This document shows positions 22,051 through 38,128 of a DNA stretch of 64,000 nt, piece after piece. The notes under the pieces were generated by a model, which ran no database searches, was not told where the DNA came from, and worked only from the letters and a program-made list of their open reading frames with translations. Position 1 is the first letter of the stretch, and the number at the start of each line of letters is the position of its first letter. Origin of the DNA: Desulfuromonas sp. (GTDB taxonomy: Bacteria > Desulfobacterota > Desulfuromonadia > Desulfuromonadales > Geothermobacteraceae); assembly GCA_002868905.1 (NCBI GenBank), contig PKUA01000029.1, positions 80,204 through 144,203 of the forward strand, given 5' to 3'. Position numbers and translations under genes: made by a program.

Positions 22051-22141
22051 AAATGAGACATTCTATCCGGATTCGAAATCGGGGTTTGAAGAGGCTTAAA
22101 AAGTTCGCCGTTCTCTGCCACGCCTTCGGTCCGCTTCCTGG

Positions 22142-23470: not shown

Positions 23471-23482
23471 CGGCTTGTCACC

Positions 23483-23758
23483 TTACTTGTCGTAGTCGAG
23501 GATTTCCAATCCCTCGGAGGTTGCCAGCAATTTGATATAGACGGGAAAATCCTTCCCCCGAATTTTCCGTTTCCCCTCCAGGATAACTTCACCGTTCCGA
23601 TTGAGGGCATTGAGGATCATCTCGGGCGATTCCTTGATTTCGAACCTCTGGTAGAGGCCGGTCAGGTTCAATTCACGACGTGTCACCGGCTTGTCTGGCG
23701 GCAGTGAACAGGCTGAAAACAGTAGCATAATCAGCAGCAGGATGGGGATATACCTCAT
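23483..23758 (-). CDS. Small lipoprotein of unknown function
   Basis: A 91-residue protein with a lipoprotein signal peptide: MRYIPILLLIMLLFSACS, with lipobox cysteine at residue 17. The mature part is short, basic and beta-rich (GEVILEGKRKIRGKDFPVYIKLL). AGAAGGAG lies upstream of the ATG at 23758. The gene ends 12 bases before the PhoH2 start and follows the desulfurase-like gene. No family recognised. Confidence 0.82.
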   Translation of the reverse strand: MRYIPILLLIMLLFSACSLPPDKPVTRRELNLTGLYQRFEIKESPEMILNALNRNGEVILEGKRKIRGKDFPVYIKLLATSEGLEILDYDK

Positions 23759-23820
23759 ACTCGAAGCTCCTTCTGAGATGTGGTGATCAATGGCCCTATT
23801 CCAGCGGCAATCGGTGTTTT

Positions 23821-24966
23821 TCACGAACTTGCCGTCAAGCTTGCAACAGCCTGCAGCAGCAGGTCGATCTCCTCGGCGGTGTTGAAAAAGCCGGGGCTGA
23901 CCCGGATCGTCCCTCCGGGAAACGTGCCGATGGTCCGATGGGCTTCCGGGGCGCAGTGCAAACCGACCCTTGTCAGGATACCGTATTCCCGATCGAGGAG
24001 GAAACCGATTTCAGCCGGATCGCGTCCTTCGACCAGAAACGAGACCACCCCACCGTTGTTCTCCAACGAGGTGGGGCCGAAAACCCGGGTCCCGTTGATT
24101 TTTTCAAGTCCGGCATAGAGCAGCTGAAGTTGTTCCTGCTTACGGGCAGCCAGAACGTGCAGTCCGGTCTCGGAGAGAAAGTCGAGGCCGGCCTTGAGGC
24201 CGGCTATGCCTGGCAGGTTCGGCGTGCCGGCTTCCAGCCGCTCCGGGAGTTCCGTCGGCGGGATTATTTCACTCGAATTCGCCCCGGTCCCTCCATAGAT
24301 CAGCGGCTCGAGTCGCAGCCCGGGACGGACACAGAGCAGCCCAATGCCGCTCGGACCATACAACCCCTTATGACCAGCGACCGCGAGCAGATCGATCGCA
24401 TCATCTTCGACGTTAATCGGCAGAACCCCGGCGCTCTGGGCCGCATCGACCAAGAGGAGGATTCCATGCTGCCGGCACCAGCGACCGATTTCACCGATCG
24501 GTTGAATGGTACCGGTCACATTGGAACAGTGGCTTAACGCGACCAGCCGGGTCGGAGTGGAACATGCCGCCCTGATCTGTTCCAGGGTCACACGTCCGTC
24601 GGTTCCGGCCGCAACCCGTTCGACCACGACGCCGCGCTGTTCCAGGGCATGCAACGGTCGGCTCAGTGCATTATGTTCCATGCTGGTGGTCACAACCCGG
24701 TCACCGGGTTGAAGCAGCCCGAATAACGCCTGGTTGATCGAGGCGGTTGCTCCGGAAGTAAACACTACGCTTGCGGCATCCCGGACCCCGAAAAAGGCAG
24801 CGGCCGTCTCCCGGGCATCGAGGACCATTCGCCCCGCTTCAAGGGTCATCCGATGCCCCCCGCGGCCGGGGTTTCCACCAACGTTCCGAAAAGCGGCATC
24901 CACTGCCCGGTATACCGGTTCAGGCTTGGGAAAACTGGTCGCAGCGTGATCGAGATAAATAGCCAT
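23821..24966 (-). CDS. Cysteine desulfurase-family aminotransferase
   Basis: A 381-residue class V PLP aminotransferase of the NifS/Csd group. YLDHAATSFPKP opens the domain, VAGHKGLYGPSGIG holds the PLP lysine, and RVGLHCAPEAHRTIGT carries the catalytic cysteine. The sequence is closer to the desulfurase-family subgroup often found with selenium genes (SelD, YedE/YedF) than to IscS. It may supply sulfur or selenium. It starts 53 bases after the stop of the GeoRSP SPASM gene, so it could be the tail of that operon. Confidence 0.85.
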   Translation of the reverse strand: MAIYLDHAATSFPKPEPVYRAVDAAFRNVGGNPGRGGHRMTLEAGRMVLDARETAAAFFGVRDAASVVFTSGATASINQALFGLLQPGDRVVTTSMEHNALSRPLHALEQRGVVVERVAAGTDGRVTLEQIRAACSTPTRLVALSHCSNVTGTIQPIGEIGRWCRQHGILLLVDAAQSAGVLPINVEDDAIDLLAVAGHKGLYGPSGIGLLCVRPGLRLEPLIYGGTGANSSEIIPPTELPERLEAGTPNLPGIAGLKAGLDFLSETGLHVLAARKQEQLQLLYAGLEKINGTRVFGPTSLENNGGVVSFLVEGRDPAEIGFLLDREYGILTRVGLHCAPEAHRTIGTFPGGTIRVSPGFFNTAEEIDLLLQAVASLTASS

Positions 24967-25019
24967 ATAACTCAAATGATAGAGGATTTTGCCATGGTTT
25001 GACAGAAAAATTGTCCGAA

Positions 25020-25943
25020 TTATCGTGGTTCTTTACAGAGTGGATCGCGGCTCTCCGAAGTTCCGAGACAACGGGCGAGTCCGCGACATCCGCCGAAACA
25101 GATCTCGTAGGCATGACAGTCACGACAGTCCCGGGGAGTTGTCCCGATTTCGCTGCAGACAGCGGTGCGGGCCTGTGATTGCCAGAGATCGGCCAATGGT
25201 TGTTCTAACAGAGAACCGATTCTCAGCTGCCAGGAAGAACAGGGATAAAGATCCCCCTCTGCGGAAATGTGAGCCAGACCGTTTCCGGCCTGGCAACCTG
25301 AGTAATGCTCGCGCGGTGCCTCCGGGCAGAGCAACTCCCAGAGAAACAGGTCGTGCACCTCAAGTTTCAGGTCAGTGGACGAGCGACGACAGGTTGGCGC
25401 GAGAGGGCGAAACGATTCGAGGTCGTCGGCCTCAAGAACCCGCGACGCGAGGTCCGGACGATCGACCAGTGGGAAATTCGGGAGTTTGACGCCGGCAACA
25501 CCAACCTCACCGGCAACCTGGAAAAGACGCGGCAGTTGTTCAAGGCGACCTCTGATGGGGAGTAGTTGCAACTCGGGATAATAGCCGAGCTTGCGGAAAT
25601 TTTTGACCGCGTCGACCACCTCTGCGTTCTGCCAACCTTCTTCGTCAACGACCGCCCCAATATCCAGGAGCAGGCGGGTTAGAGGCAAGTCGGGGTTCAA
25701 GACGGAAAAACCTGCACGGCACAACGGCACAACCAGGGTCACCTGCACCGATCCCCCATCAAGCTGCCGAATCAACGTCTCCAGGCCGGGATGGCGCCAG
25801 GCGTCACCGCCAAGGGTTACAAAGAAGATTCCGCCCTCGACAAGGCTCTCGGCAATACGCCCCAGCTCAGACTCGGAGAGGGGCGCAGCGTCTTTCAGGG
25901 TCCAGGTGATGCGCAACGGCGCATCAAACAGATCGAGTCCCAC
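25020..25943 (-). CDS. GeoRSP system SPASM-domain protein lacking radical-SAM cysteines
   Basis: A 307-residue protein with a radical-SAM-like barrel and a C-terminal SPASM domain. Where radical SAM enzymes have CxxxCxxC after the first strand, this protein reads ITWTLKDAAPLSESEL, so the SAM cluster cannot form. The C-terminus keeps a full cysteine set: CQAGNGLAHISAEGDLYPC, then CRDCHAYEICFGGCRGLARC and a last DPLC, able to hold auxiliary Fe-S clusters. The start is a GTG at 25943, only 6 bases after the precursor peptide stop. It is likely a paralogous partner or scaffold of the active enzyme. Confidence 0.85.
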   Translation of the reverse strand: MGLDLFDAPLRITWTLKDAAPLSESELGRIAESLVEGGIFFVTLGGDAWRHPGLETLIRQLDGGSVQVTLVVPLCRAGFSVLNPDLPLTRLLLDIGAVVDEEGWQNAEVVDAVKNFRKLGYYPELQLLPIRGRLEQLPRLFQVAGEVGVAGVKLPNFPLVDRPDLASRVLEADDLESFRPLAPTCRRSSTDLKLEVHDLFLWELLCPEAPREHYSGCQAGNGLAHISAEGDLYPCSSWQLRIGSLLEQPLADLWQSQARTAVCSEIGTTPRDCRDCHAYEICFGGCRGLARCLGTSESRDPLCKEPR

Positions 25944-25949
25944 TCCAGG

Positions 25950-26006
25950 TCAGCAGGGGTGAACGTTACCGGAAGAGATGACACGCGGCTTGGCATACTT
26001 TTTCAT
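25950..26006 (-). CDS. GeoRSP precursor peptide, 18 residues
   Basis: The reading frame MKKYAKPRVISSGNVHPC lies between the radical SAM enzyme and the SPASM protein, with an AAAAGGAG site six bases before its ATG. Position, size and the invariant-looking basic start and HPC end fit the ribosomally made peptide of the GeoRSP system. The single Cys18 and His16 are likely modification or metal-binding sites; which residues are modified is unknown. It is too short for most gene finders. It is tightly coupled to the following gene. Confidence 0.85.
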   Translation of the reverse strand: MKKYAKPRVISSGNVHPC

Positions 26007-26036
26007 GATCGACTCCTTTTGGGTTGAGAGTGGTTT

Positions 26037-26065
26037 GTAGAGACGCCCCGGCGGGGCGTCTCTAC
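26037..26065. repeat. GAGACG palindrome within the GeoRSP operon
   Basis: GTAGAGACGCCCC and GGGGCGTCTCTAC form perfect 13-bp arms with a three-base loop. It is the same family as the cluster at 13742-13920 and lies in the 74-base gap between the radical SAM gene and the precursor peptide. In the mRNA it would be a stable hairpin that could set the ratio of upstream and downstream messages. Confidence 0.88.
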
Positions 26066-26080
26066 AAAAAACGGACGAAA

Positions 26081-27082
26081 TTATTTCCAACAGTGCGGGT
26101 CGGGCTCGGAAAAATCACCGGTTTCGGCAAAAGCGCGCGCCGTGCAACCGCCGAGACAGTCCTCGTAGGCGCCGCAGCCGACACATTTCCCTTTCGCCTC
26201 CTTGGTGCGCATCTTCAGCAACAGCGGTGATTCGTTCCAGAGCGTGTCAAAATCATCCCGCAGAATGTTACCGACCACCAGCGGGATGAAACCGCACGGG
26301 GTAATATCACCGTTCGGTCGCAGATGAAGCGAGAGTTTGCCACAGCTGCTCCCTTTGACCAACGGGTCCGCGTCGTAACCGGGGAGAGACGCGATAACCG
26401 GATCATCGAAGGAGATGGAAAGGTCATCGGTCTCCTGCTTGACCTCAAGAGCCTCCCGGTAGAAGTCTTTCCATTCCTCCGGAGTCAGATCGAGTTCTTC
26501 CCGGTTCTGAAACCCGCGCCCGCTACACTTGAAGTTGTGCAGGTAGACCTGCTTAACCTCATGCTCGCGGGCAAGCTGCAGCAGCTCGCGGAATTGGCGA
26601 AAGTTGATCCGGGAGATGACGGCGCTCATGGTTGTGCGGATTCCAGCTGACGCAAGGTGCTGAAGAGCGGCGGTGGCCCGGTCGAAAGAACCGGGCATGC
26701 AGCGAAACTCGTCATGCAGACCGGCCTCCGCGCTGTCAATGCTGATTCCGACGCTTTTGAAACCGGCCGCCTTGACCTTCTCGGCGGCACCGGCATCCAA
26801 CAACCAGCCGTTGGAGTTCATCGACACATTCAAGCCCTGGGCCGTCGCGTACCCGGCGAGGTCGTAAAGATCGGGACGGATCAACGGCTCGCCACCACCG
26901 AAGTTGATAAATGGCACTTGCTTCTGCCGCAGGATATCGACGACCTGTTTCAACTCGGCCAGCGAAAGTTCCGGCACCTGCTCCTCGCGGCTGTAACAGT
27001 GGCTGCAGCTGAAATTACAGCGGAACGAGAGGGTCCAGTTGAACGTCAGCGGCGCTGAAAGTAAGGTGTTCTGCTCACGCAT
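26081..27082 (-). CDS. GeoRSP system radical SAM/SPASM enzyme
   Basis: A 333-residue radical SAM enzyme. The SAM cluster motif CNFSCSHC (Cys22, 26, 29) is intact, followed by INFGGGEPLIRPDL and MNSNGWLL. The SPASM region has SCGKLSLHLRPNGDITPCGF, then CVGCGAYEDCLGGCTARA and a final DPHC. SPASM enzymes of this kind modify ribosomal peptides by radical crosslinking or epimerisation. The ATG overlaps the end of the PqqD-like gene by 8 bases. The substrate is inferred to be the 18-residue peptide encoded directly downstream. Confidence 0.93.
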   Translation of the reverse strand: MREQNTLLSAPLTFNWTLSFRCNFSCSHCYSREEQVPELSLAELKQVVDILRQKQVPFINFGGGEPLIRPDLYDLAGYATAQGLNVSMNSNGWLLDAGAAEKVKAAGFKSVGISIDSAEAGLHDEFRCMPGSFDRATAALQHLASAGIRTTMSAVISRINFRQFRELLQLAREHEVKQVYLHNFKCSGRGFQNREELDLTPEEWKDFYREALEVKQETDDLSISFDDPVIASLPGYDADPLVKGSSCGKLSLHLRPNGDITPCGFIPLVVGNILRDDFDTLWNESPLLLKMRTKEAKGKCVGCGAYEDCLGGCTARAFAETGDFSEPDPHCWK

Positions 27083-27386
27083 CGGTCACCCACCCCCGTT
27101 GTTGCAGGTCGACGAGGAATTCTCGCACGTCTTGCTCTAACTCCTCGGCCGCGACCTCGTACTCGGCACCGATCTCCTGCACGATAGCTGCGAGTTCAGT
27201 TTCGCCGTCGCAACGACGCCAGATCTCTCCGCCGAGGAGGTTGAGTTGATGCATGGTCCCGTTGACGACCAGGATCACCGTTCCCCCCTCCGAAATATCT
27301 TCACCTCGTTCAGCCGCTTCAAGCAGCTGCTGCTCCCGGCGCTGCTCGTGTCGCCAGATCACATCCGGGTTCCGCTTTGGTTTCAC
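27075..27386 (-). CDS. GeoRSP system PqqD-like peptide chaperone
   Basis: A protein of about 103 residues of the PqqD/RRE family, which binds the leader of a precursor peptide and hands it to the radical SAM enzyme. The family fold shows in GGTVILVVNGTMHQLNLLGGEIWRRCDGETELAAIVQEI followed by VAAEELEQDVREFLVDLQQRGWV. The start is taken at the GTG at 27386, about 9 bases after AAAGG; a GTG at 27395 is possible. It overlaps the radical SAM gene. Confidence 0.87.
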   Translation of the reverse strand: MKPKRNPDVIWRHEQRREQQLLEAAERGEDISEGGTVILVVNGTMHQLNLLGGEIWRRCDGETELAAIVQEIGAEYEVAAEELEQDVREFLVDLQQRGWVTDA

Positions 27387-27411
27387 AATACACACCTTTC
27401 CTTACCCCGTT

Positions 27412-28473
27412 TCATGATGTCCGATCCCGCCACAGAAGGGAGTTGGTCAACAGGAACAGAAAACCGACCAGGGTCGCTACCTTGCCGTAAAACGGTACGC
27501 CAGCCGCCGTCGCTGTCAAGCCCCAGGCCTGGACCAGACCGCCGCCAATGACCATGCCGATCACCACCAGACCGGCGTCGGCATCCCCTTCCCCCGCTTT
27601 AATCAACTGACGGAATGGGCAACCGCCGATCAGCACTGACAACCAGCCGACCAGCGCCATGCCGGCAAAACTCCAAAAATGCTGCAGATGGGCGCCGGGC
27701 TGACCGTACATCCCGAGCCGGAACTGTCCGCTGAACAGGTTGAATCCGACCGCCACCACCACGAAGACCAGCAGGCCCCAGAGCAACGGGGTACGCCCTC
27801 GCATCAGGAAACTGTCCCTGATGCTGCCGGTAATGCAGAATCGGCTCCGTTGCGCCAGCATGCCCAGCAGCAGGCCGGCACCGAGCGACAGCAGCATCGG
27901 CGCATGCTGGGCCGCGCTGCCGCTGGTGGAAAACAGCAGGAACCCGGGGCGGAACAGGTAAAACAGCAGCAGGGCAACACCAAGACACGGTATCCACCAG
28001 CCGCTGCCACGCTGCTTTTCCGCCCGGCCAAAATGAATGCCGGCGGCGAGTCCGCGCAGTCCGATCCACACCCCTGCGACCAGTCCAGCCAGGCCGGCCA
28101 GGCTGGTCAAGTCACCGGCCGTCAGACGGAGGAACAATTTAATCGGGCAACCGATAAAAACGCCGCAGCCGATCATCAGGAAAATCCCGGCAAGAAGGCG
28201 GACCAGCGGAGCGCTCCCGCCACGGCTGTTAAACTCGCGAAACAGGCCGGCGCTGAGGACGGCCCCGAGAACAAAACCGATAATCTCCGGACGGAGGTAC
28301 TGCATGCGGGCATTGTCATGCAGGCCGAGGGCACCGGCGCTGTTTTCCAGGAAACAGGAGATACAGATCCCCGAGTTTTCCGGATTGCCCGCCACGGCGA
28401 GACCGACGCCGGCGATGCCGAGGGCGAGACTGGCGACGATCACCAGCCAGAAATGTCGATCGAGAGTCGGCAT
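27412..28473 (-). CDS. YedE-family putative selenium transporter
   Basis: A 353-residue membrane protein of the YeeE/YedE family with about nine hydrophobic segments. Family cysteine motifs are present: SGICISCFLEN, GCGVFIGCPIKLFLRLTAGDLTSL, QRSRFCITGSIRD and GGCPFRQLIKAGEGD. The YeeE branch carries thiosulfate, and the YedE branch is associated with selenium use. Two selenoprotein genes in the window fit a selenium role, but the gene is embedded in the GeoRSP operon, so the substrate may belong to that pathway. Confidence 0.87.
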   Translation of the reverse strand: MPTLDRHFWLVIVASLALGIAGVGLAVAGNPENSGICISCFLENSAGALGLHDNARMQYLRPEIIGFVLGAVLSAGLFREFNSRGGSAPLVRLLAGIFLMIGCGVFIGCPIKLFLRLTAGDLTSLAGLAGLVAGVWIGLRGLAAGIHFGRAEKQRGSGWWIPCLGVALLLFYLFRPGFLLFSTSGSAAQHAPMLLSLGAGLLLGMLAQRSRFCITGSIRDSFLMRGRTPLLWGLLVFVVVAVGFNLFSGQFRLGMYGQPGAHLQHFWSFAGMALVGWLSVLIGGCPFRQLIKAGEGDADAGLVVIGMVIGGGLVQAWGLTATAAGVPFYGKVATLVGFLFLLTNSLLWRDRTS

Positions 28474-28476
28474 ACT

Positions 28477-29016
28477 CTATTCACACCCTCCCGCCAACCT
28501 GCTCTGCAGGTAGTAGAGATCACGCATGGTCTCCTGCAGGGAGCTGTTGTCCGGGTGTTGTTTCACCTGTGCTCCGACCTGCCGCAACCCTTCATCGACC
28601 ACCCGGCTGATGGACTCGTAACGCGAGAGCGGGCTCTTCGCATCGACGTAATCGCCGTTCCCCTTCACCCCCCGGACAAAGCTGGCCGTCGCCGGCTGCC
28701 ACGCCTGCTGGGCGAGGAGGATTTCACCGCGTAAAATATCTCCATGCGGCTCGCCGGGGTACTCACGCCCCAGCTCCTTGAGCTTCAACAACGCCGCGGC
28801 GTACTCGCCCGAAGCCGTGAGGTCCACGACGGGCGCATAGGTCTGTTTGAGGAAGTCGGTCCGCGCCCGGGCCAGCATCTGCTTCTCCATGGCCCGATCC
28901 AGGCGTCCCCCATGCATCGCACCCGCCTCCGGCTGCGGGGTCAGAACGAGTAGCAGCAGACCGCCGGCCACGACCAGCAGGCCGACAAGATGAAGCATGT
29001 CAAACCGGTCCGGCAT
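28477..29016 (-). CDS. Membrane-anchored TPR-like protein
   Basis: A 179-residue protein with one N-terminal transmembrane helix (residues about 8-26) and a periplasmic helical part. ASGEYAAALLKLKELGREYPGEPHGDILRGEILLAQQAWQPATASFVRGV has tetratricopeptide spacing. The start is the ATG at 29016, three bases after the preceding stop; it ends 3 bases before the YedE start. No known family; probably a scaffold for the neighbouring envelope proteins. Confidence 0.7.
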   Translation of the reverse strand: MPDRFDMLHLVGLLVVAGGLLLLVLTPQPEAGAMHGGRLDRAMEKQMLARARTDFLKQTYAPVVDLTASGEYAAALLKLKELGREYPGEPHGDILRGEILLAQQAWQPATASFVRGVKGNGDYVDAKSPLSRYESISRVVDEGLRQVGAQVKQHPDNSSLQETMRDLYYLQSRLAGGCE

Positions 29017-29019
29017 CAA

Positions 29020-29925
29020 TCAAAACTCCTGGTAAGGGGGCATATTGGCGCGTCGCGCCATTTCCCGCAACGGATCGTAATCGCTGTCGACCAACTGGTC
29101 GAAACCATCAACCCAGGCGCCATCCAGAACCTTGACGACCTCACCGTCCAGTTCGACCGTCACCTCGGGTGTCAACTCCAGCAGGGCACGTTGAAACCTG
29201 TTGACCAGGTCCGTATCGAGCCTTTTCGCCGCCCCGAAGGTGCAGTAGGGAAAAATCCGACTCTGGCCAATAATGTTGAAATCGTCGGCGCGTATTTTCC
29301 CTTCCGCGGCCATGGTTTCCAAATCGAGGGCGGGAGCGGCTGCGACGTCGTAAGCGCCGAAATAAACCCCGTAGACCACCTTTTCATGCTTGAAGGAACC
29401 GTGCGGGATGCCGTAATAGGAGAGATCGGTCTCCGGGTCGAATCCGGCCTGCAACATCAGGTCATACTGAGCGAGAAAACCGCTCGGCGCCAGCTGCGGC
29501 CCGAACAGCATCCGCTTCCCCTTCATATCGTCGATGGTTTTGATCCCGCTCCCCTTGCGCGAAATAATTGCTCCGGCGGTGCGGGATCCGTACTCTCCCC
29601 GCCTCTCGGTAGCGACCAGACTCAGCCCGGCCTCCTTGTGCAATATGATGTAAAGCAGGGAATTGGTATGGGTAAAGTCGAATTCTCCGGCCTTGAACCG
29701 CTCGGGGAAATCCTGCGTATCGACCGGCACCAACTTGAAGTTAACGCCAAGCTTTTCACCCAGATACCGGGTCAGGGGTTGAAACCGCTGGATCGTCTCA
29801 GCCTCGCTGTTGCAATTCATGTAACCGATGGTGTAGGTCGGTCGCTCAGTCTCAGGCTGACATCCAGCCAGCAGACTCAAGGCGATCAACAGCAACAGGG
29901 TTATCAGGAAGGATGATAATTTCAT
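29020..29925 (-). CDS. PhnD-like periplasmic binding lipoprotein
   Basis: A 301-residue binding protein of the phosphate/phosphite/phosphonate (PhnD) family. It is a lipoprotein (LLAGC, Cys22). TIGYMNCNSEAETIQRFQPLTRYLGEKLGVNFKLVP, FDFTHTNSLLYI and GKRMLFGPQLAPSGFLAQYDLM are typical of the fold. No ABC permease or ATPase genes are adjacent, so it may sense or chaperone an oxyanion or small ligand for this operon instead of feeding an importer. ATGA overlap with the gene upstream. Confidence 0.85.
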   Translation of the reverse strand: MKLSSFLITLLLLIALSLLAGCQPETERPTYTIGYMNCNSEAETIQRFQPLTRYLGEKLGVNFKLVPVDTQDFPERFKAGEFDFTHTNSLLYIILHKEAGLSLVATERRGEYGSRTAGAIISRKGSGIKTIDDMKGKRMLFGPQLAPSGFLAQYDLMLQAGFDPETDLSYYGIPHGSFKHEKVVYGVYFGAYDVAAAPALDLETMAAEGKIRADDFNIIGQSRIFPYCTFGAAKRLDTDLVNRFQRALLELTPEVTVELDGEVVKVLDGAWVDGFDQLVDSDYDPLREMARRANMPPYQEF

Positions 29926-31013
29926 TCTCTGTCTTTCTTCGGGATCGGTGGCTGTGGCAAATCCGGTTCCTGTGGAAGCGGGGCATCCCAGCGGACCGGA
30001 CCGACATCGGCCCGATCAGATTGATCGCGCACCAGACCGGCGACCCGGCTGCTTTTCCCCCACCAGTTACGACCGATCGACATCTCGTCGCTACCGTCGT
30101 TGATGACAGCGTATTCACCATTGTCCGAAAGGTCGTTCCCGACGATGGTCCCGCCGGATTCGATCCAGCGGATACCGGCCCGACCGTTGCCGGCAATCCT
30201 GTTTCCAACGAGGTTAATATCTGATTCTTCAAAAAAGGTGCCATGCTCGGCGTTGCCCTGCAGCCAATTTCCATCGATCTCCCCCCGGCTCCGCTGCAGG
30301 TAGAGGCCTCTGCGGTTGCGGGTGATCGTATTACCGCGGGCGACCAGGTCTGAATCGCGCAGGCTGACACCATTGGCCAAGTTCCCCTCGATCAGGTTGT
30401 TGACCAGTTCGATATCGCTGTAAACGCAGCGCACACCCCAGTTTCCACCCCTGACCGTCGATTCCACCATGCGCACGGTCGAGTCGCGAAACTGAATACC
30501 GTTGAAGTTGTCTACGATGCGGCAGCGCTCAATTGAAACGGTCGACTCCTGGAACTGAAAGGCGCGCCGGTTATGGCGGAACACGCTGTCTCGCACCTTT
30601 CCCCGCCCGAAATGAGCGTGAAACCCGCGATAGGCAAACTCGACCAGACAGTGTTCCAGGCGATTATCGTTCTCGGACGCCATCATGTTGATCGCCCCCC
30701 AGAAACCGGGGAAGCCGTCACCGGCCGCGGTGAAACGGATCGGCGCCTCGGCGGTCCCGAGGGCGAGCAGTTCCCCCTGGACAAAAAGTTCGTGCTCGCC
30801 GATCCCGTCCCCGTTGGTATCGTTACGGGTAAAACGAATGACGCTTCCTGGGCGGATTTCCAGCCGGACCTCGGGTGCCACCGTCAGGATTCCGTCGATC
30901 AGGATCTCGCCTTCCCACACCGTGTCCTGCCATAATGTCTGTTCGCCGCGATACACGGTCTCGGCCCATGCCGTAACGGGAGCCAGGAGCAGCAGCAGGA
31001 GCAACAACCTCAT
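29922..31013 (-). CDS. Secreted right-handed beta-helix protein (NosD-like)
   Basis: A 363-residue protein with a signal peptide ending TAWA and about ten beta-helix coils rich in N-x-I/G turns (RDSVFRHNRRAFQF, NNLIEGNLANGVSL, GNTITRNRRGLYL, GNRIAGNGRAGI). NosD, a periplasmic beta-helix protein of nitrous oxide reductase maturation, is the closest well-known comparison, along with CASH-domain carbohydrate-binding proteins. A proline-rich tail ends it. ATGA overlaps on both sides show tight coupling. Confidence 0.82.
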   Translation of the reverse strand: MRLLLLLLLLAPVTAWAETVYRGEQTLWQDTVWEGEILIDGILTVAPEVRLEIRPGSVIRFTRNDTNGDGIGEHELFVQGELLALGTAEAPIRFTAAGDGFPGFWGAINMMASENDNRLEHCLVEFAYRGFHAHFGRGKVRDSVFRHNRRAFQFQESTVSIERCRIVDNFNGIQFRDSTVRMVESTVRGGNWGVRCVYSDIELVNNLIEGNLANGVSLRDSDLVARGNTITRNRRGLYLQRSRGEIDGNWLQGNAEHGTFFEESDINLVGNRIAGNGRAGIRWIESGGTIVGNDLSDNGEYAVINDGSDEMSIGRNWWGKSSRVAGLVRDQSDRADVGPVRWDAPLPQEPDLPQPPIPKKDRE

Positions 31014-31798
31014 GGGCCCACCTCCACCCTCTGCAGGTGGTCGACCCGGTTGTCGACAAAACGGATACGTCCGGTCTCCATGGCGGAACCGACAAGACCG
31101 AGGTCATTTCCGCGAATTTCCACCTCCTGCAAAACCGTTTGACACCCTGGCCCGAGCACCACCCCTTCCTCGTCGTGCCCGACGATGTTACCGCGACGGA
31201 TGTCCAGGGAACCTTCGCCCCAGCAGAGGATGCCGGTTTCACCCCGGTCTATCAGGACATCGGTTCCGCTGAAACGTCCCCCGTTCTGCAGAATGACACC
31301 GTAGCGGTTGTCGGTGACAACCACCTGGTCGAGAACGGCACTGGCTCCGCTGACCAGCAGGGCTGTCTCAGCACCGGACAACCGGACATTGTTAAAGCGC
31401 CCTACCCCTCCGGCGATAAGCTCGATACCTGCCCAGCCCGTCTCCCCGGCGTCCTCGCTCCCGACAGTTACATAAGGAAGGACATGAACCGGCTCGGCAC
31501 CAGCGGCACCGACGACCAGTTCACCTTCAACCAGCAACTCGACCTTGGAAGAGAGGAACTCAGGATCGATCTTGGTCGAGTCGGTCGAGTGAACGAGGAT
31601 GGTGCTTCCCGGCTCGATCACCAGTCGGGCACCCACCGGAACACGAACGTCGGCGACGAGGTGCACGATGTCGTGCAGGACCGTCTCCCCCGCGAGCACA
31701 CCGGCGAGTTCGAAAACGTTGGCCTGCCCGGTTGTCTGCCTGGGGGCGGAACAAGCCGTGAGCAGCAGGCAAAGCAGCAGACCGAGTCGATATACCAT
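31010..31798 (-). CDS. Beta-helix lipoprotein
   Basis: A 262-residue lipoprotein (MVYRLGLLLCLLLTACS, lipobox Cys16) with parallel beta-helix repeats, e.g. RFNNVRLSGAETALLVSG, LDQVVVTDNRYGVIL and FSGTDVLIDRGETGILCWG. It resembles the following beta-helix protein and the two are probably paralogues that pair in the envelope. The start shares a base with the preceding stop (TGATG). Function unknown. Confidence 0.78.
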   Translation of the reverse strand: MVYRLGLLLCLLLTACSAPRQTTGQANVFELAGVLAGETVLHDIVHLVADVRVPVGARLVIEPGSTILVHSTDSTKIDPEFLSSKVELLVEGELVVGAAGAEPVHVLPYVTVGSEDAGETGWAGIELIAGGVGRFNNVRLSGAETALLVSGASAVLDQVVVTDNRYGVILQNGGRFSGTDVLIDRGETGILCWGEGSLDIRRGNIVGHDEEGVVLGPGCQTVLQEVEIRGNDLGLVGSAMETGRIRFVDNRVDHLQRVEVGP

Positions 31799-32271
31799 CA
31801 GATCCAGCCTTGCTTTTGGAGAAACCGGCGAGCCGTGGCCAGCGGGGGTGCTCCGGATTCAACCCTGCCGATCAGGCGCCGCACCTGCTCCGGTTGCAAC
31901 AGCCCCTGCAATTTTTTCAACGCGGGGACAACCAGCGAGAATTGCAACTCCTCCAGGGGCCGTGGGCCGCTGAAGAGGCTGGAAAGAGCCTCGACCTTGA
32001 AAACACGAGTCGCTCCGACCATCTCGTCGGGTGAGAACACCAGGTCGACCCGGTCCTCTTGCAGAGCCTGCTGCCCGCCGCCGGGCGGGATGGTGACCAG
32101 GTTCGATTCGATGCCGGTCTTTTCCTGCAGGTAAATGGTGACGACCGCCGACAGGAGCTGCTGTCGTGCCCCCCCGTCAGTGGCGACGAACAGCTTCGGT
32201 CCGAAACAGGCGACGGCCGGTGTTCCGGAGAGCAAACAGATGCCCAGCGCCAACAGGATGACGTATCTCAT
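31798..32271 (-). CDS. Small secreted substrate-binding-like protein
   Basis: A 157-residue exported protein. The signal peptide ends near AVAC; the mature part has LFVATDGGARQQLLSAVVTIYLQEKTGIESNLVTIPPGGGQQALQEDRVDLVFSPDE, which resembles the N-terminal lobe of OpuAC/PBP-like periplasmic binding proteins. It is only about half the usual length, so it is either a one-lobe protein or a truncated derivative. ATGA overlap with the 4Fe-4S membrane protein upstream. Confidence 0.65.
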   Translation of the reverse strand: MRYVILLALGICLLSGTPAVACFGPKLFVATDGGARQQLLSAVVTIYLQEKTGIESNLVTIPPGGGQQALQEDRVDLVFSPDEMVGATRVFKVEALSSLFSGPRPLEELQFSLVVPALKKLQGLLQPEQVRRLIGRVESGAPPLATARRFLQKQGWI

Positions 32272-33770
32272 CGGACGAACAGCCATTCAAAGATGGTGGC
32301 GCCGGTCATGCCGCCGACGATCAGGGCCGAGACGATAACACCGAACAGATACCCCCGGTCCACGCCCAGGGTATTGCAACAGCGTCGCGCGGCAACGATG
32401 GACAGGCTGAACCCTGCGAGCAGAATAAGCGAAACCAGCCACTTCAAAATATCGAGGGTAACAAGCACTCCCGGCGGGGTGATGGTCTGCATCACGTTCA
32501 AGGCCAGATAGCTCCGAACCCCGCTCGGGTCCTGAAGCACCAACGGAAGGTAACCGATCTTGGCGTTAAGTTTGACCACGGCGAGAATCAGGTGCACCGC
32601 CAGCAGCAGCGGAATCAGGGGGAGCGCCAGGGCACCGAGGCGGCGGCCAAAACCGGTGTGGTCCCCGCGAACCTCCGTTTCGGCAACCGGTTCCCCGTCA
32701 ACCGGTGGCGCCTCGCCGCCTGTCTGAGTTTCACTCAAACGCCAGAGAATCAGGCCGGGTAGCAGCAGCAGCAGCGGCAGCAGAAGGGCGATCCAGACAC
32801 AGGCGAGAAATTGAAATCCGTTGACCTGCCAACCAAGCAGCTGCGCGGTCTGCTCAGGGACCCAGAAAACCAGGTCGCGCAGATCGACATAAACCTTGCT
32901 GAAATTGGCTGTCAGCAGCCCGAGCAGCACGACGAAGAAGAGGGTCTCGCCACGTCGCATCCAGGCCGAACCGAAATCGGCCAACCAGGACCGCCTGCCG
33001 ACCAGGATATTGTCCTTGTCGCATTGCTTGACACAGTTGAGGCAAAGGGTGCAGTCAACGCTGTCGGTCAGGTGCTGTGGCACCAGGTCGACCGGACAAC
33101 CGGCCCGCCCCGAACGCCAGTAGAACACTCCCGGGCCGAGGGCAAACCGATTCCAGATCGGGGTGGTGGCGATACACGCCTGGCTCTCACATCCGTCACA
33201 GACGCTGCTTTCCCGCACCCGGAGATGAAATGGCGCCACCCGGGCGTAGAGCCCGAACAGGGCCCCGGCTGGGCAAAGAAGTGTACAGAAAGCGCGGCCC
33301 CGGAACACCAGCCCGGCCGTCACGGTCAATATCAGGACCACGGTCAACAGCCATGCGGTGTAGTCGGGGAAACGATGAATAGTGAAGAGATAGACCGACA
33401 ACTGCAGCACGATCAGCACCAGGGTCACCGGCAACAATCCCTGGAGCCACCGGGGGATGGAAGCTCCCAGTCCGAACCTGCTGACCAGGCCGTTCAGCCA
33501 ACCGAGAGGACAGACGGTACACCAGGCCCGGCCGAACAACAGGGCGACCACCACGATAATCATGATCCAGAGGACCCAGAAAAAATGGGTCGCAAAATTC
33601 AGATACATCAGTGGGTCGGGGACCTCGACGCCGGGAATGGCGTGATGATGCCAGCCGAAAGCGATCATGGCCAGCATCAGCAACAGGAAAACAGCCCGCA
33701 CCAGTCGCCAAGTCCAGGCAGACCGGAGCAGCGAACCCAGCCCCTTTATTTTTAACAGATCCGTGAACAT
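32268..33770 (-). CDS. NapH/NosR-like 4Fe-4S membrane protein
   Basis: About 500 residues with roughly ten transmembrane segments and a polyferredoxin core. Cysteine motifs are CTVCPLGW and CTLLCPAG between membrane helices (NapH/NosR/CcoG style), then CDGCESQACIA, CPVDLVP and a ferredoxin-type CTLCLNCVKQCDKDN. Proteins like this move electrons across the inner membrane from quinol to periplasmic partners or maturation systems. The ATG at 33770 is the likely start, but its ribosome site is weak and a TTG at 33821 is possible. A heme-binding lipoprotein in the same operon is a candidate acceptor. Confidence 0.85.
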   Translation of the reverse strand: MFTDLLKIKGLGSLLRSAWTWRLVRAVFLLLMLAMIAFGWHHHAIPGVEVPDPLMYLNFATHFFWVLWIMIIVVVALLFGRAWCTVCPLGWLNGLVSRFGLGASIPRWLQGLLPVTLVLIVLQLSVYLFTIHRFPDYTAWLLTVVLILTVTAGLVFRGRAFCTLLCPAGALFGLYARVAPFHLRVRESSVCDGCESQACIATTPIWNRFALGPGVFYWRSGRAGCPVDLVPQHLTDSVDCTLCLNCVKQCDKDNILVGRRSWLADFGSAWMRRGETLFFVVLLGLLTANFSKVYVDLRDLVFWVPEQTAQLLGWQVNGFQFLACVWIALLLPLLLLLPGLILWRLSETQTGGEAPPVDGEPVAETEVRGDHTGFGRRLGALALPLIPLLLAVHLILAVVKLNAKIGYLPLVLQDPSGVRSYLALNVMQTITPPGVLVTLDILKWLVSLILLAGFSLSIVAARRCCNTLGVDRGYLFGVIVSALIVGGMTGATIFEWLFVR

Positions 33771-33833
33771 CGAACGGTCAGCTGGCCTTTCGTCGGTGGA
33801 ACGGTTTGATCTTAACAGCAATCCGCCTGCCGG

Positions 33834-34733
33834 TTAGTGATAGATGTGATACGGCAGGACCATCTCGCCCTGGCTGTTCCGAAACAGGGTCCGTTTGCCG
33901 CTGATCATTTCAAGAGAGCGCGCCGACCACTCACGCACCACCTCGACCTCGTCATCCAGGGTTGTCCGCAAGGCAGCTTCGGCTTTCGGTCCGCCGATCG
34001 GGCCAAGAGCCGTGGCGGCAGCCATCCGGTTCTGCCAATCGGCGTCGCTCAACCCGGCGACCAGACCCTGCTCAGCGCGTGGGTCTTTCAATTTGCCGAG
34101 GGCATGGAATATCTCCCGCCGCATCGGCGAATCGAGCAACTGCAGCAGCACCGGCAAAGCGCGCCGGTCACCGATATCTCCGAGCGCCCGGATTGCGCCG
34201 GCGGCCCCTCTTGCAGGTGCACTCGGGAGATAGTCAAGCAGAGCCGGCAGGGCGCTCTTGTTCAACTTGATCAGGGAACGGGTGGCACGTTTACGGACCT
34301 CCCCGTCCGGATCATCCAGGGCAGCCACCAGGAAGGGAACCCCGTTGTCCTTGCCGATTTCTCCCAAGGCCCACGCCGCAACATAGCGTCGGTTCAGGCC
34401 GACATTCTGCAAGACCGCACCGATCGGCGTGACAGCCGCTTCGGCCTTCAGGGTGCCGAGGCCGGCGATGACGTATTCGCGACGCTCGTCATTTGGATCA
34501 TCGACCTTCTCCAACAGGTAGGGGATCGAGGCAACGCCCTGCTCCATGAGCACGCCATAGGCTCGCCCGTTCAGATCATTCTGAGTCTCACCGAGCAACT
34601 CGACCAGGGTGCGGAACGCCTCCGCCTGTCCGGTCTTGGCCCGGGTGGAGAGGCCTTCAAAATCGAGCGGCCCTTCCCGGGTGTCACACCCGACCAGCAG
34701 AAGCAGCAGAAGCAGGGGAAGCAGGTATTTCAT
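33834..34733 (-). CDS. HEAT-repeat lipoprotein
   Basis: A 299-residue lipoprotein (LLLVGCD, Cys16) built of HEAT or PBS-lyase-like repeats: VTPIGAVLQNVGLNRRYVAAWALGEIG, VPFLVAALDDPDGEVRKRATRSLIKL, RALPVLLQLLDSPMRREIFHALGKLKD, and one more. Such proteins are protein-binding scaffolds. Its start overlaps the preceding stop (TGATG). Partner unknown; probably another envelope protein of this operon. Confidence 0.85.
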   Translation of the reverse strand: MKYLLPLLLLLLLVGCDTREGPLDFEGLSTRAKTGQAEAFRTLVELLGETQNDLNGRAYGVLMEQGVASIPYLLEKVDDPNDERREYVIAGLGTLKAEAAVTPIGAVLQNVGLNRRYVAAWALGEIGKDNGVPFLVAALDDPDGEVRKRATRSLIKLNKSALPALLDYLPSAPARGAAGAIRALGDIGDRRALPVLLQLLDSPMRREIFHALGKLKDPRAEQGLVAGLSDADWQNRMAAATALGPIGGPKAEAALRTTLDDEVEVVREWSARSLEMISGKRTLFRNSQGEMVLPYHIYH

Positions 34734-35491
34734 CACCAGACCTTGGTTACGGTGATATCGATCTGTTGCAGGACTTCGCCGTCCCGGACCACTACGGCGG
34801 ACGGCTCGATGGTTCCCTGGTCGTAGCGACCATAGAGGTCACCGAGTTTCGGCGGACCACCGAACTTGTCGCGTGCCGCGAGATAATAGGTGCCTCCTTC
34901 GGGAAGGAGGATCAGGTAACGGCCGTCCGGACCGGTTTTTTCCGAGACGAATTTCGGCCGTTCCGACATCTGCACATGATCGTAGATATGAACCCGGGCA
35001 TCCATCACCGGCTCCCCGTCAGCGTTCAGAATCCGCCCCGAGATGCCGGTCTTGGTCTTCTCCGCGTCCTTGGTCAGTCGCCGGCTGTCACCGATCTTGA
35101 CCGGCGCAACCAGGGTCAGGGCGGACTGGTCGCCACGGACACTCAACTTGATAAACTCGCTCTTGTGATCACCGGCGACCACCGGACCGGCCGCCTCTCC
35201 GTTCTGCCTTTTCCTCACCACCAGGACATATTCCCCGTCCGGAAGCTGCAGGTCGAATTGACCGTCAGCCCCGGTCGCCTCGGACACCACATAGGCGGGT
35301 CCGTAAAGATCCATCCCCTGCTTGTAGACGTAGAGGTAGGCGCCTTCGAGAGGGTTCACCACCTGTCCGGTAATTCGCCCCAGGCCGGACTGACCCGTTC
35401 CGGTCGCGGTGTCGTTCCCCTCCTGACAACCGAGCATCGTCACCATGGCGACGAGCAGCATGCCGCAGAAAAGTGTCTTCAACAGTTTCAT
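34733..35491 (-). CDS. Carboxypeptidase-regulatory-like lipoprotein
   Basis: A 252-residue lipoprotein (VTMLGCQ, Cys22) with two transthyretin-like Ig domains of the carboxypeptidase regulatory type: GRITGQVVNPLEGAYLYVYK...GQFDLQLPDGEYVLVVRKR and GISGRILNADGEPVMDARVHIYD...GRYLILLPEGGTYYLAARDK. These domains are usually structural or ligand-binding. The ATG at 35491 has GAGG six bases upstream; an ATG at 35503 is less well spaced. Second gene of the operon. Confidence 0.85.
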   Translation of the reverse strand: MKLLKTLFCGMLLVAMVTMLGCQEGNDTATGTGQSGLGRITGQVVNPLEGAYLYVYKQGMDLYGPAYVVSEATGADGQFDLQLPDGEYVLVVRKRQNGEAAGPVVAGDHKSEFIKLSVRGDQSALTLVAPVKIGDSRRLTKDAEKTKTGISGRILNADGEPVMDARVHIYDHVQMSERPKFVSEKTGPDGRYLILLPEGGTYYLAARDKFGGPPKLGDLYGRYDQGTIEPSAVVVRDGEVLQQIDITVTKVW

Positions 35492-35509
35492 TGCAATCCT
35501 CATCCCCTC

Positions 35510-36523
35510 TTATTGATCCGCCAGCAAAATCAGCCGTTCGTTCGTGCGGGACGCGTAATGCTGATTGAGGGTGTGATCCATGACGGCAAGGCCGAAAGAG
35601 ACCCCCGCCTCGTCTCCCGGCACGAAAACGACATCGTGCGGGTCCCCGGTGCGCAGCTTCCGTTGCAGGGTCACGACCCAGTGACCATTGATATGCTCAG
35701 AACGACACACGACATCGCCGCGTCCACCCTGCGGAACGTCCGTCATGTAGCCGGGAGCCGGACTTCCCGGTGCGACAAATCGCCCCTTCAACGGCTCTCC
35801 CTGAAGGTCGTACAACGGTTCGTCTCCTTCACGAAACGGCTCCTGGTTGGTAACGGCGAAGCGGGAGTTTGGTTTGAACAGTTCACCCGGCTCATCTCCG
35901 TGCATCCCTTCCTGGTCGACAAAGCGATCGTCGGCGAAACCGTATCGTCCGGTCCGCTCCGCCTTCCAATGCCACAGGTCGGTCCAGGCACCGTTCCGTG
36001 CCAGGCGCATCTTGTTCTGGGCATGGAAATTCGCGCCGGAGACACCGAAATCCTCGATGTGGCACGCATAGGAACAGGAGAACCTGGGGAATTTCCCCTG
36101 AGCGTCGAACATGATGCCGAAGCCATCCTCCAACCCGCCCTGATTGGCCCATGCGACACCATTGAACAGCCAGCGCATGAAGCTGTCATCCCTGGTCGCA
36201 TCGCGCCAGGAGAGACGGAGGAACAGGGAATGATCCGTATAGAACGCCCGCAGGTCGACTTCAACCGGGTCGGGAAGTGTGCTGCCGTGATGACAGGAGG
36301 CGGTCGTGGTATGAACCGTGTCGCTGTCAACATCGGCAAGCTTCTTCAGCCGGTGCAGATCACCGCCGCGAACGCTGATCAGCCGCGGCAGCGCCCTCTC
36401 CCAGGTCGAATCTTCCGGAGGCCCGTCGAGATGAATCGCATAGAGCTTGTCGCCGCCCAACTCACGGCAACCGCCTGCACCCATCACCGAGATGGTTATC
36501 AATGCAAGTATCAGGAATCTCAT
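35510..36523 (-). CDS. Ethylbenzene dehydrogenase-like heme-binding lipoprotein with a CxxCH site
   Basis: A 337-residue lipoprotein (GAGGC, Cys19) of the EB_dh/DOMON-type heme-binding domain family, related to the gamma subunit of ethylbenzene dehydrogenase. VDLRAFYTDHSLFLRLSWRDATRDD and GFGIMFDAQGKFPRFSCSYACH are family-like. CSYACH (Cys150-His155) is a CxxCH motif, implying covalent heme c, and SCHHG lies upstream at Cys77. It is the first gene of the operon, behind a sigma-54-type promoter. Probably an envelope electron-transfer protein; the donor may be the 4Fe-4S membrane protein. Confidence 0.82.
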   Translation of the reverse strand: MRFLILALITISVMGAGGCRELGGDKLYAIHLDGPPEDSTWERALPRLISVRGGDLHRLKKLADVDSDTVHTTTASCHHGSTLPDPVEVDLRAFYTDHSLFLRLSWRDATRDDSFMRWLFNGVAWANQGGLEDGFGIMFDAQGKFPRFSCSYACHIEDFGVSGANFHAQNKMRLARNGAWTDLWHWKAERTGRYGFADDRFVDQEGMHGDEPGELFKPNSRFAVTNQEPFREGDEPLYDLQGEPLKGRFVAPGSPAPGYMTDVPQGGRGDVVCRSEHINGHWVVTLQRKLRTGDPHDVVFVPGDEAGVSFGLAVMDHTLNQHYASRTNERLILLADQ

Positions 36524-36568
36524 CGCTATGCTCGTTGTGCGGCCGCAAAAGGCCGCGCAACAAAACAC

Positions 36569-36584
36569 AGCAAGGACCATACCA
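36569..36584 (-). promoter_or_regulatory. Sigma-54 (-24/-12) promoter of the GeoRSP envelope operon
   Basis: The minus strand reads TGGTATG-GTCC-TTGCT, matching TGGCACG-N4-TTGCW at the key GG and GC with correct spacing. It lies 46 bases before the first start codon, and the gene immediately upstream encodes an NtrC-family activator. Confidence 0.72.
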
Positions 36585-36587
36585 TGG

Positions 36588-36601
36588 CGATGACGTCATC
36601 G
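36588..36601. promoter_or_regulatory. Palindrome adjoining the sigma-54 promoter
   Basis: CGATGACGTCATCG is a perfect 14-base palindrome, flanked by ACCAT (36581) and ATGGT (36602) in inverted order. It touches the -24 element, closer than a usual activator site, so a repressor or second regulator could bind here. Confidence 0.5.
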
Positions 36602-36693
36602 ATGGTACGGGTGGGAGCTTGTAACAAACGGTTATGAGAGGGGATTTTCCACGTTCAACTCTGGCGGGAACCGGGAGGAGTACGGAGCGATCC

Positions 36694-36709
36694 TGACAGA
36701 AAAGTGTCA
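36694..36709. promoter_or_regulatory. Candidate upstream activator site TGACA-N6-TGTCA
   Basis: An inverted repeat TGACA-GAAAAG-TGTCA at the end of the regulator gene, about 140 bases upstream of the expected start of the GeoRSP operon, the normal distance for an NtrC-family binding site. Confidence 0.45.
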
Positions 36710-38128
36710 AGCATCATCGGATGTTATATCGTCATCCATCTCCCCCTCGTCTCCTTCGCCTCCCCGGGTGACCAGACCGTATTTCTCCATTTTGTAACGG
36801 AGAGTGGTTCGCTTGATCCCGAGGATTTCCGCGGTTCGCGTCTGCGACCTTCCTTCACGGTTCAGCGTCTGCACGATCAGCTGTTTTTCCAGGTCTTCGA
36901 GGATTTCCGTCAAACTTCCGCCCCTCTCGGGAAGAGACAGGCAGATCTGGTCCGTCTCCTGGACCCCCTGGGGGAAGTCCCTGGGAGTCAGGGTCGGGGT
37001 CTTCGCCAGGACGACGGCACGTTCCATGGCATTTTCCAGTTCGCGGACATTTCCCGGCCAGTCGTACGCCACCAGGCAAGCTATCGCCTTGGGGGCTATC
37101 TCCTCGATCTTTTTCCCGGTCTCCGCCGTATACTTGTCGAGAAAATGACGAGCCAACGGTTCGATGTCCTCCCGCCGCGACCGCAGAGGGGGAAGGTCGA
37201 CGTTCACGACGTTGAGCCGGTAGAAGAGGTCCTCCCGGAATTCGCCGTTTTTTACCGCCTGCTCAAGGTTCTTGTTGGTCGCGGCCACCAGCCTGACATC
37301 GACACCAATGGTCCGGGTCCCGCCGACCCGCTCGAATTCGTGCTCCTGTAAAACGCGCAGCAGCTTGACCTGGGCGGCGAGGCTCATCTCGCCAACCTCG
37401 TCGATGAAGAGCGTCCCCTGGTCAGCAAGCTCAAAGCGGCCCTTTTTGGTGTGCAGGGCACCCGAGAAAGCCCCTTTTTCATGGCCGAAAAGTTCACTCT
37501 CGAGCACCCCCTCGGAGAGAGCGGCACAATTGAGGACGATGAACGGTTTCTCCTTGCGGCTCGAGTTGAAATGGATGGAGCGGGCGATCAACTCCTTCCC
37601 GGTCCCCGATTCACCGGTGATCAGGACATTGGCGTTGCTCACCGCGACAGAGGAAGAGACATCGAAGACATCCTGCATCGCCTGGGATTTCCCTACGATA
37701 CCGCTGACGCTGTAGCGTCCTTCGAGCTCCTCGTGCAGGTAGCGATTCTCCGCCAACAGCCGTTCATGTTCGAGCGCCTTGGACACCGTCATGCGGATGG
37801 CATCGGTTTCGAACGGCTTGGTGATGAAATCATACGCCCCTGAACGGAGAGCCTGCACAGCACTTTCCACCGTCCCGTAGGCGGTCATGACGATGATCGG
37901 CAACTGCGGATCGAACCCTTTCAGTTCGGCCAGCAGCTGCAAACCGTCCATCCCCGGCATTTTCATATCGGTGATGACGAGATCGAACTCATCATGGGCG
38001 ACCTGCTGCATCGCTTCTTCGCCGGAACCGACCGCTGCGGTCTCGTACCCTTCCTTGACCAGGATGCGCGACAGCAGGCGCCGCATCCCCTCTTCGTCGT
38101 CTACGATCAGTATTTTTTCAGCTGGCAT
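36707..38128 (-). CDS. Sigma-54-dependent response regulator (NtrC/AtoC family)
   Basis: A 473-residue three-domain activator. Receiver: residues 1-120, with DDEE, phosphoacceptor in ITDMKMPGMDG and the KPF lysine. AAA+ domain: GESGTGKE (Walker A), GAFSGA (the sigma-54 contact loop, a GAFTGA variant), DEVGEMSLAAQ (Walker B) and WPGNVRELENAM. C-terminal Fis-type helix-turn-helix: RSQTRTAEILGIKRTTLRYKM. It ends upstream of the GeoRSP operon on the same strand and is the obvious candidate regulator of that operon. It begins directly after the GGDEF gene. No cognate kinase is adjacent. Confidence 0.95.
   Translation of the reverse strand: MPAEKILIVDDEEGMRRLLSRILVKEGYETAAVGSGEEAMQQVAHDEFDLVITDMKMPGMDGLQLLAELKGFDPQLPIIVMTAYGTVESAVQALRSGAYDFITKPFETDAIRMTVSKALEHERLLAENRYLHEELEGRYSVSGIVGKSQAMQDVFDVSSSVAVSNANVLITGESGTGKELIARSIHFNSSRKEKPFIVLNCAALSEGVLESELFGHEKGAFSGALHTKKGRFELADQGTLFIDEVGEMSLAAQVKLLRVLQEHEFERVGGTRTIGVDVRLVAATNKNLEQAVKNGEFREDLFYRLNVVNVDLPPLRSRREDIEPLARHFLDKYTAETGKKIEEIAPKAIACLVAYDWPGNVRELENAMERAVVLAKTPTLTPRDFPQGVQETDQICLSLPERGGSLTEILEDLEKQLIVQTLNREGRSQTRTAEILGIKRTTLRYKMEKYGLVTRGGEGDEGEMDDDITSDDA

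Follow-up and report, generated by a model that had tools for sequence, protein, structure and literature searches.

What does a radical S-adenosylmethionine (SAM) enzyme do with an 18-residue peptide in the midst of envelope genes, and which proteins does the product serve? The question is raised by a 14-gene unit on the minus strand (25020-36523) of a 64,000-nucleotide (nt) stretch of Desulfuromonas sp. DNA (contig PKUA01000029.1; hereafter the window), which begins with a lipoprotein gene with a heme-binding domain (start 36523) and ends with a SPASM gene (end 25020). The initial annotation had presented it as a peptide-maturation system of the GeoRSP kind within an envelope redox operon, and this stands as far as the unit and its maturation genes are concerned; however, the peptide is not confined to the operon: it is multicopy and scattered, with copies behind genes for cytochromes and other exported-looking proteins, a finding new to this analysis. 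Our tentative answer, which we regard as a serious possibility that stops short of being probable, is that the operon matures a Val-His-Pro-Cys peptide that would act as a shared prosthetic group or ligand of large exported proteins, above all of giant multiheme cytochromes.

Is so short an open reading frame (ORF) a gene at all? The window's copy, MKKYAKPRVISSGNVHPC (25950..26006, minus strand; stop TGA), has the Shine-Dalgarno sequence AAAGGAG, and its 18 residues end in Val-His-Pro-Cys. In 92 copies collected by similarity, a Shine-Dalgarno-like site and an ATG start are each found 91 times, the minor-base fraction by codon position is 0.147/0.104/0.431 (a strong third-position bias), amino-acid change is 0.38 of the random expectation, and the VHPC end, Gly(-8) and Pro(-12) are invariant (92/92); outside that set the end varies, as IHPC (e.g. 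L038, L239, L246), MHPC (L232) or VYPC (L046/L320). These sequence marks show that the peptide gene is under constraint and has a ribosome-binding site. Its stops are TGA, TAA and TAG in the proportions 23/8/2 in the first set of relatives and 49/37/6 in the 92-copy set, so the last residue is taken to be a true C-terminal cysteine; selenocysteine at the window's TGA (HPC-TGA, in frame with the SPASM gene) is ruled out by the occurrence of all three stops among relatives. No match, including to MftA- or PqqA-type models, was obtained for five peptides scanned against NCBIfam at E <= 10 (very short queries may be missed). In regions fetched around relatives of the enzyme at 80 loci, the Desulfuromonadales type has a peptide MKKYxKPRVVGSSNVHPC after the enzyme, and several Geobacter types have the peptide upstream of the operon. 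Organisms whose records contain the enzyme include Geobacter sp. AOG1, Geomobilimonas luticola and Geothermobacter hydrogeniphilus.

The enzyme itself, a radical SAM/SPASM protein with the motif CNFSCSHC (26081..27082, minus strand), passes its family model (TIGR04303, 448.9 bits; cut-off 400). The PqqD-like peptide chaperone (27075..27395, minus strand) scores 94.3 bits against TIGR04302 (cut-off 100) and 68 bits against PF05402, and the SPASM protein (25020..25943, minus strand) 86.2 bits against TIGR04304 (cut-off 300); in each case the TIGR model is the best library match though under its cut-off, for which reason we term the set GeoRSP-type only. The SPASM gene is present in 76 of the 80 loci. 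Because its product aligns with the enzyme over its full length (23% identity) and has lost the CX3CX2C stretch, a motif found among the fetched loci in 68 of 69 enzymes (the exception, in L078, begins at a contig end) and in none of 71 SPASM proteins, it is a pseudo-radical-SAM paralogue of the enzyme and its predicted partner, with its C-terminal cysteines retained. Judged from its genes, the locus thus has the ribosomal precursor and the nearby maturase by which a ribosomally synthesized and post-translationally modified peptide (RiPP) is recognized. After its own family, the NCBIfam models closest to the enzyme are MftC (the nearest), the heme-b synthase AhbD and NirJ, all cofactor-making enzymes, and we count this kinship in favour of a prosthetic group; its solved relatives (E <= 1e-10) are cytosylglucuronate decarboxylase, PqqE, SkfB and one listed as 'Radical SAM'.

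How closely do peptide and enzyme keep company? We surveyed 277 genomes of the class Desulfuromonadia, together with 26 further genomes, mostly of Nitrospirota, reached via other loci. A profile built from 18 peptides, which recovered the window's own (G000:C64:106156-106209), had matches in 98 of the 277 at E <= 0.05 and in 95 at E <= 1e-5, and the enzyme (E <= 1e-60) was found in 87, of which 81 exceed the cut-off of its family. Enzyme and peptide occur together in 85 genomes, the enzyme alone in 2, the peptide alone in 10 (13 at the looser threshold) and neither in 180. The 85 genomes with both hold 220 peptide matches, and 62 of them have more than one; carriers range from one to fifteen matches each. 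The peptide is also found in 23 of the 26 further genomes, two of which (both Nitrospirota) have 14 and 15 matches. Few peptides were found inside the enzyme loci of Nitrospirota and Geobacter, and the whole-genome search put the copies elsewhere. A second copy is present in the genome of the window itself, 62 nt downstream of an FG-GAP gene (L119).

Which genes, then, do the scattered copies follow? Regions fetched around copies from the best listed matches, mostly outside the operon (L119-L197), contained 89 distinct copies, of which 5 were at contig ends and 84 could be evaluated. Directly behind genes for multiheme cytochromes (49) or FG-GAP proteins (13) lie 62 of the 84. The cytochrome cases comprise 47 copies behind an ORF with 6-87 CXXCH motifs (44 at distances of 14-122 nt; two are tandem copies behind one shared cytochrome) and 2 behind a cytochrome cut by the contig or the fetched region; the thirteenth FG-GAP case (L121) was assigned via a family homology search. 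For comparison, the loci of the enzyme contain 1311 ORFs, and 10 of these have at least five CXXCH motifs. In three Geobacter relatives, AOG1 (L316), L317 and L318, a 34-heme cytochrome gene with a peptide gene closely precedes the operon in the same orientation. Six client cytochromes scanned against Pfam all match Cytochrome_C7, three match F5/8 type C, three are MtrC/MtrF-like and one has the Geobacter CxxxxCH motif (PF09698). The FG-GAP clients combine FG-GAP repeats with UnbV_ASPIC (below cut-off in one case), and at E <= 0.01 a single solved relative, cartilage acidic protein 1, was found for them. A terminator-like hairpin follows within 90 nt in 76 of the 89 copies, against 48 of 270 random windows (drawn from the enzyme's loci, not from the copies' own), and as most copies have such a hairpin behind them a role as leader peptide or attenuator was judged unlikely.

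Radical SAM/SPASM enzymes with PqqD partners are common RiPP machinery, and the product might in principle be a RiPP that serves as an antimicrobial or a signal and is unconnected with its neighbours. We can hardly credit this, given a near-invariant end in Desulfuromonadia and Nitrospirota alike, the many copies, the strong link to cytochrome and envelope genes, and the failure to notice any immunity gene or peptide exporter in the unit.

Some further features of the surroundings of peptide copies may be recorded here. At L138:2826-9101 a predicted cytochrome of about 2090 residues, which contains 87 CXXCH motifs and ends in an F5/8 type C domain, has the peptide directly after it. Large membrane proteins with TPR repeats lie beside copies at L127:7864-9552 and in 10 more loci; we read them as TMTC-like (Pfam matched TPR only), and matches like the L127 protein, possibly via TPR alone, occur in Geobacter operons (e.g. 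L044, L052, L056, L057, L061, L063). A lipoprotein of about 460 residues with a TPR end lies beside copies at L160:2702-4090 and in 15 more loci. Another large membrane protein recurs near copies in L120, L121, L123 and L258, that of L258 having a sub-threshold spermidine-synthase match and a 4-nt overlap with the peptide gene. In two lineages (L131, L241) a B12-binding radical SAM protein or a look-alike, assigned from a domain scan of L131 only, precedes the peptide by 152 and 211 nt. Finally, G277 and G279 (Nitrospirota loci L048, L053; L228-L233, L262-L264) have arrays of small CarboxypepD_reg-type proteins, many members being followed by a peptide copy of the VCVHPC form, and part of the G279 array is beside YedE.

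Do the candidate clients depend on the maturation genes? In homology searches made independently of the peptide, one FG-GAP family was found in 40 of the 277 genomes, 37 of them with the enzyme, and one cytochrome family in 18, 16 of them with the enzyme. That client families found without recourse to the peptide sit mainly in enzyme-bearing genomes, and that envelope genes co-occur with the system (see below), are among our reasons for preferring a shared prosthetic group or ligand.

A number of observations weigh against that preference. Fisher tests, among them that of the enzyme-peptide co-occurrence (4e-57), are uncorrected for kinship; G182 and G226, both 99-100% complete, have the enzyme with no peptide match; and the ten peptide-bearing genomes without an enzyme match include, beside eight that are 66-82% complete, G017 (91%) and G239 (97%). 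The FG-GAP family is present in G129 and G130, and the cytochrome family in G130 as well, though both genomes lack enzyme and peptide. Of the 84 evaluable copies, 22 have some other upstream gene or none within 320 nt, and in the further genomes, where 65 of 70 copies were examined, 10 of the 65 are behind a cytochrome (7-52 motifs), and many of the rest have an exported-looking protein, of CarboxypepD_reg type or otherwise, before them; small CarboxypepD_reg-type proteins make up many of the neighbours in the two genomes that have 14-15 matches. No domain common to all clients was found, several C-terminal ends recurring without any single one prevailing, and the clients look exported on a reading of their N-termini and domains that was made without a signal-peptide program. 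The peptide has no signal sequence. Of the FG-GAP orthologues, 38 of 41 are in enzyme-bearing genomes and a peptide immediately follows 18 of the 41 (17 among 40 that were fetched and, in addition, the one in the genome of the window), though too diverged a copy would have gone unnoticed. Moreover, we infer the product, its export route and its attachment from gene content, constraint, copy number, neighbours and co-occurrence, which are established at the level of sequence.

The FG-GAP figures also bear on how a client would obtain its peptide. A model in which each client must have its own copy in cis is ruled out by the 23 of 41 FG-GAP orthologues that have none; it follows that the peptide is likely to be supplied in trans as well as in cis. 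Could it then be a diffusible redox cofactor or metal-binding compound resembling pyrroloquinoline quinone (PQQ), mycofactocin or a metallophore, with extra copies that only raise output when cytochromes are made? The final peptide sequence is nearly constant whatever the neighbour, MftC is the enzyme's nearest NCBIfam relative outside its own family, and FG-GAP genes without a cis copy are still mainly in enzyme-bearing genomes; on the other hand, such a compound would not need its precursor placed so tightly behind many unrelated genes, and the binding proteins have no ATP-binding cassette (ABC) partner in the unit. On balance we find this alternative rather improbable. Alternatively, the matured peptide might be a sorting or anchoring tag that marks unrelated exported proteins or tethers them to the outer surface, much as a C-terminal sorting signal would, were it encoded in trans. 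The clients (cytochromes, FG-GAP, CarboxypepD_reg, fn3/SBBP and Big_1/invasin proteins) are unrelated and seem to have only export in common, and the large membrane proteins that we read as TMTC-like recur in 11 loci, as might suit a tag. Against it are the 23 FG-GAP orthologues without a cis copy, and electron carriers, beta-helix proteins and permeases better suited to the assembly of a cofactor; nor was a sortase- or exosortase-like gene noticed in the conserved set, in which no search was aimed at them. We consider a tag unlikely.

Does the envelope module belong with the peptide? The initial annotation had linked the two, and would have been contradicted by GeoRSP genes standing without envelope genes. 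Such cases are confined to a few genomes in which sequence may be missing: YedE, the PhnD-like, TPR and NosD-like proteins were found in 35 of 37 loci (those reaching 9 kb or more to each side of the enzyme), and YedE in 83 of the 87 enzyme-bearing genomes of the class, the other four being 52-97% complete, and in 22 of the 26 further genomes. The association is therefore borne out; the make-up first proposed has to be amended, however, in that the heme lipoprotein, HEAT and NosR parts are lineage-specific. A NosR type (15 loci) and a ResB type (34 loci) were never found together (0/80), and in other lineages there is either a ResB-like protein accompanied by an ArsP-type permease and a cupin, or a NicO transporter; FmdE also occurs. 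The combination of an electron carrier, beta-helix and binding proteins, and sulfur- or metal-type permeases suggests the assembly of a redox or metal site.

In the window the envelope genes, all on the minus strand, run in order of transcription from the lipoprotein with an EB_dh (ethylbenzene-dehydrogenase gamma type) heme-binding domain (35510..36523; PF09459, 92 bits), which has a lipobox-like signal when its start is placed at 36523, through a lipoprotein with CarboxypepD_reg domains (34733..35503; PF13620, 47.8 bits), a HEAT-repeat lipoprotein (33834..34736; PF13646, 173 bits) and a NosR/NapH-like membrane Fe-S protein (32268..33821; Fer4_5, PF12801, with NapH models far under cut-off) to a small exported protein with no Pfam match (31798..32286). 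We read the last as equivalent in position to the OpuAC-type binding protein that other lineages have, because a protein in the equivalent position in L077 matches PF04069. There follow a beta-helix lipoprotein (31010..31798; PF13229, 25.3 bits, just under the cut-off of 25.9), which was counted within the NosD-like set in the locus comparison, a NosD-like beta-helix protein (29922..31013; PF05048, 60.7 bits), a PhnD-like binding lipoprotein (29020..29925; PF12974, 173 bits; best solved match PtxB) with no ABC partner within the unit, a membrane-anchored 180-residue protein labelled TPR (28477..29019; no Pfam match; in 61 of 80 loci) and a YedE-type transporter (27412..28473; TIGR04112, 397 bits, over the cut-off of 200).

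The YedE match to a selenium-transporter model invites the idea of a selenium or sulfur oxyanion pathway, in which YedE would import the element, a cysteine-desulfurase-family protein (23821..24975, minus strand; TIGR01977, 450.9 bits, cut-off 377) would handle it and the peptide would carry it. The desulfurase gene does directly follow SPASM in the Desulfuromonadales type, but is present in just 30 of the 80 loci; the peptide has no selenocysteine and its stops vary; and the YedE proteins that track GeoRSP form a separate, lower-scoring group (<=418 bits; the window's YedE is among them), 8 of the 10 high-scoring proteins being in genomes without the enzyme. We think this pathway very unlikely, and the selenium role that had been entertained for the unit is accordingly weak. 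The two groups of TIGR04112 scores in the class do not overlap, the ten at 474-491 bits belonging to G086, G041, G122, G199, G042, G098, G096, G112, G113 and G109.

Is the unit one operon? The tight packing of the 14 genes was confirmed: in transcription order the junctions measure 6, -4, 12, -19, -1, -4, -4, 0, 3, 16, -8, 74 and 6 nt, and 12 of the 13 lie within -19 to +16 nt, the sole exception being the 74 nt from radical SAM enzyme to peptide, a gap that contains a perfect palindrome with 17-nt arms (26034..26068, no strand) of which no second copy was found anywhere in the window, even with up to 3 mismatches allowed. Consensus scans of both strands from 21000 to 38500 gave 6 promoter-like sites (4.3 expected) and 16 terminator-like sites (17.5 expected), neither above chance. 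In relatives, however, the peptide has a terminator-like hairpin (in some cases weak) no more than 90 nt behind it at 20 of 27 loci, compared with 48 of 270 windows drawn at random from these loci, so that the SPASM gene may there be a separate transcript. The unit may also be longer than proposed, for the cysteine-desulfurase-family gene, a possible member, begins 44 nt beyond 25020 and is followed by two further genes at -4 and 12 nt. Just upstream of the unit, on the same strand, are genes for a sigma-54 response regulator (matching proteins in 18 of 80 loci) and a GAF-GGDEF protein (36707-39232), and a transfer-messenger RNA gene lies at 6626-6978 (minus strand).

How might a shared prosthetic group be made and used? 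As predicted from the protein families, the PqqD-like protein would present the peptide and the radical SAM and pseudo-radical-SAM pair would modify it, perhaps at the His-Pro-Cys end, e.g. by a His-Cys or other cross-link or as a metal or sulfur site. The peptide would then leave the cytoplasm, and the envelope proteins (NosR/ResB carriers, beta-helix proteins, two binding proteins, YedE and metal-type permeases) may complete it and install it on clients, to which it would be attached or bound. Precursor made from a client's own transcript would match dose to demand. The stronger proposition is that giant exported cytochromes and their surface partners, in metal-cycling members of two phyla or more, require a His-Pro-Cys peptide cofactor that one maturation operon makes, that is encoded behind their genes and that is delivered to them. 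This would make it an undescribed ribosomal prosthetic group of the electrical surface of microbes, and we put it forward as a doubtful possibility.

Comparison with known systems is instructive here. Mycofactocin (MftA/MftB/MftC) likewise pairs a PqqD-like protein with a radical SAM/SPASM enzyme whose substrate is a short peptide, but the enzyme gives 199.2 bits to MftC, under the cut-off of 265, and the present system differs in a peptide ending in VHPC, in having many precursor copies beside clients, in candidate clients that are cytochromes or exported-looking proteins, and in an extra pseudo-radical-SAM partner and envelope module. In the mycofactocin study (PMC3023750), client families are reported to be concentrated in genomes with the maturation genes, and dependence is argued from such a pattern; the client families here are similarly concentrated. 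PQQ biosynthesis (PqqA/PqqD/PqqE) has relatives here of PqqD and PqqE, but the peptide has no PqqA-type NCBIfam match (with the proviso on very short queries given above). The GeoRSP families TIGR04302-04304 cover the same gene trio, with the enzyme over cut-off; however, the models comprise three proteins, leave the peptide unmatched, and in their one-line descriptions name neither clients nor envelope module. Maturation of the NosR/NosD/NosL type also has membrane Fe-S, NosD-like beta-helix and binding proteins in one unit, but no nitrous oxide reductase or NosFYL match was found among 19 scanned proteins of the unit and its flanks, and in other lineages here ResB replaces the NosR part. With the giant cytochromes of Geobacter (PF09698) and cytochrome nanowires such as OmcS, OmcE and OmcZ the six client cytochromes scanned share Cytochrome_C7 repeats, and one of the six PF09698. 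The passages considered from the OmcZ paper (PMC9473688) deal with filaments and glycosylation, and no such peptide is apparent in them. In the open-licence literature we found no paper naming GeoRSP in this sense, TIGR04302-04304 or a peptide tied to multiheme cytochromes.

Giant cytochromes, with their tens of hemes, are believed to provide the wiring between cells and minerals, electrodes or partner cells; to our knowledge, little has been established about how they are completed and put on display. A peptide whose many copies accompany giant cytochrome genes, together with one dedicated operon, would provide genetic handles on these steps; it gives the GeoRSP protein families a role that can be tested and yields a concrete list of candidate clients.

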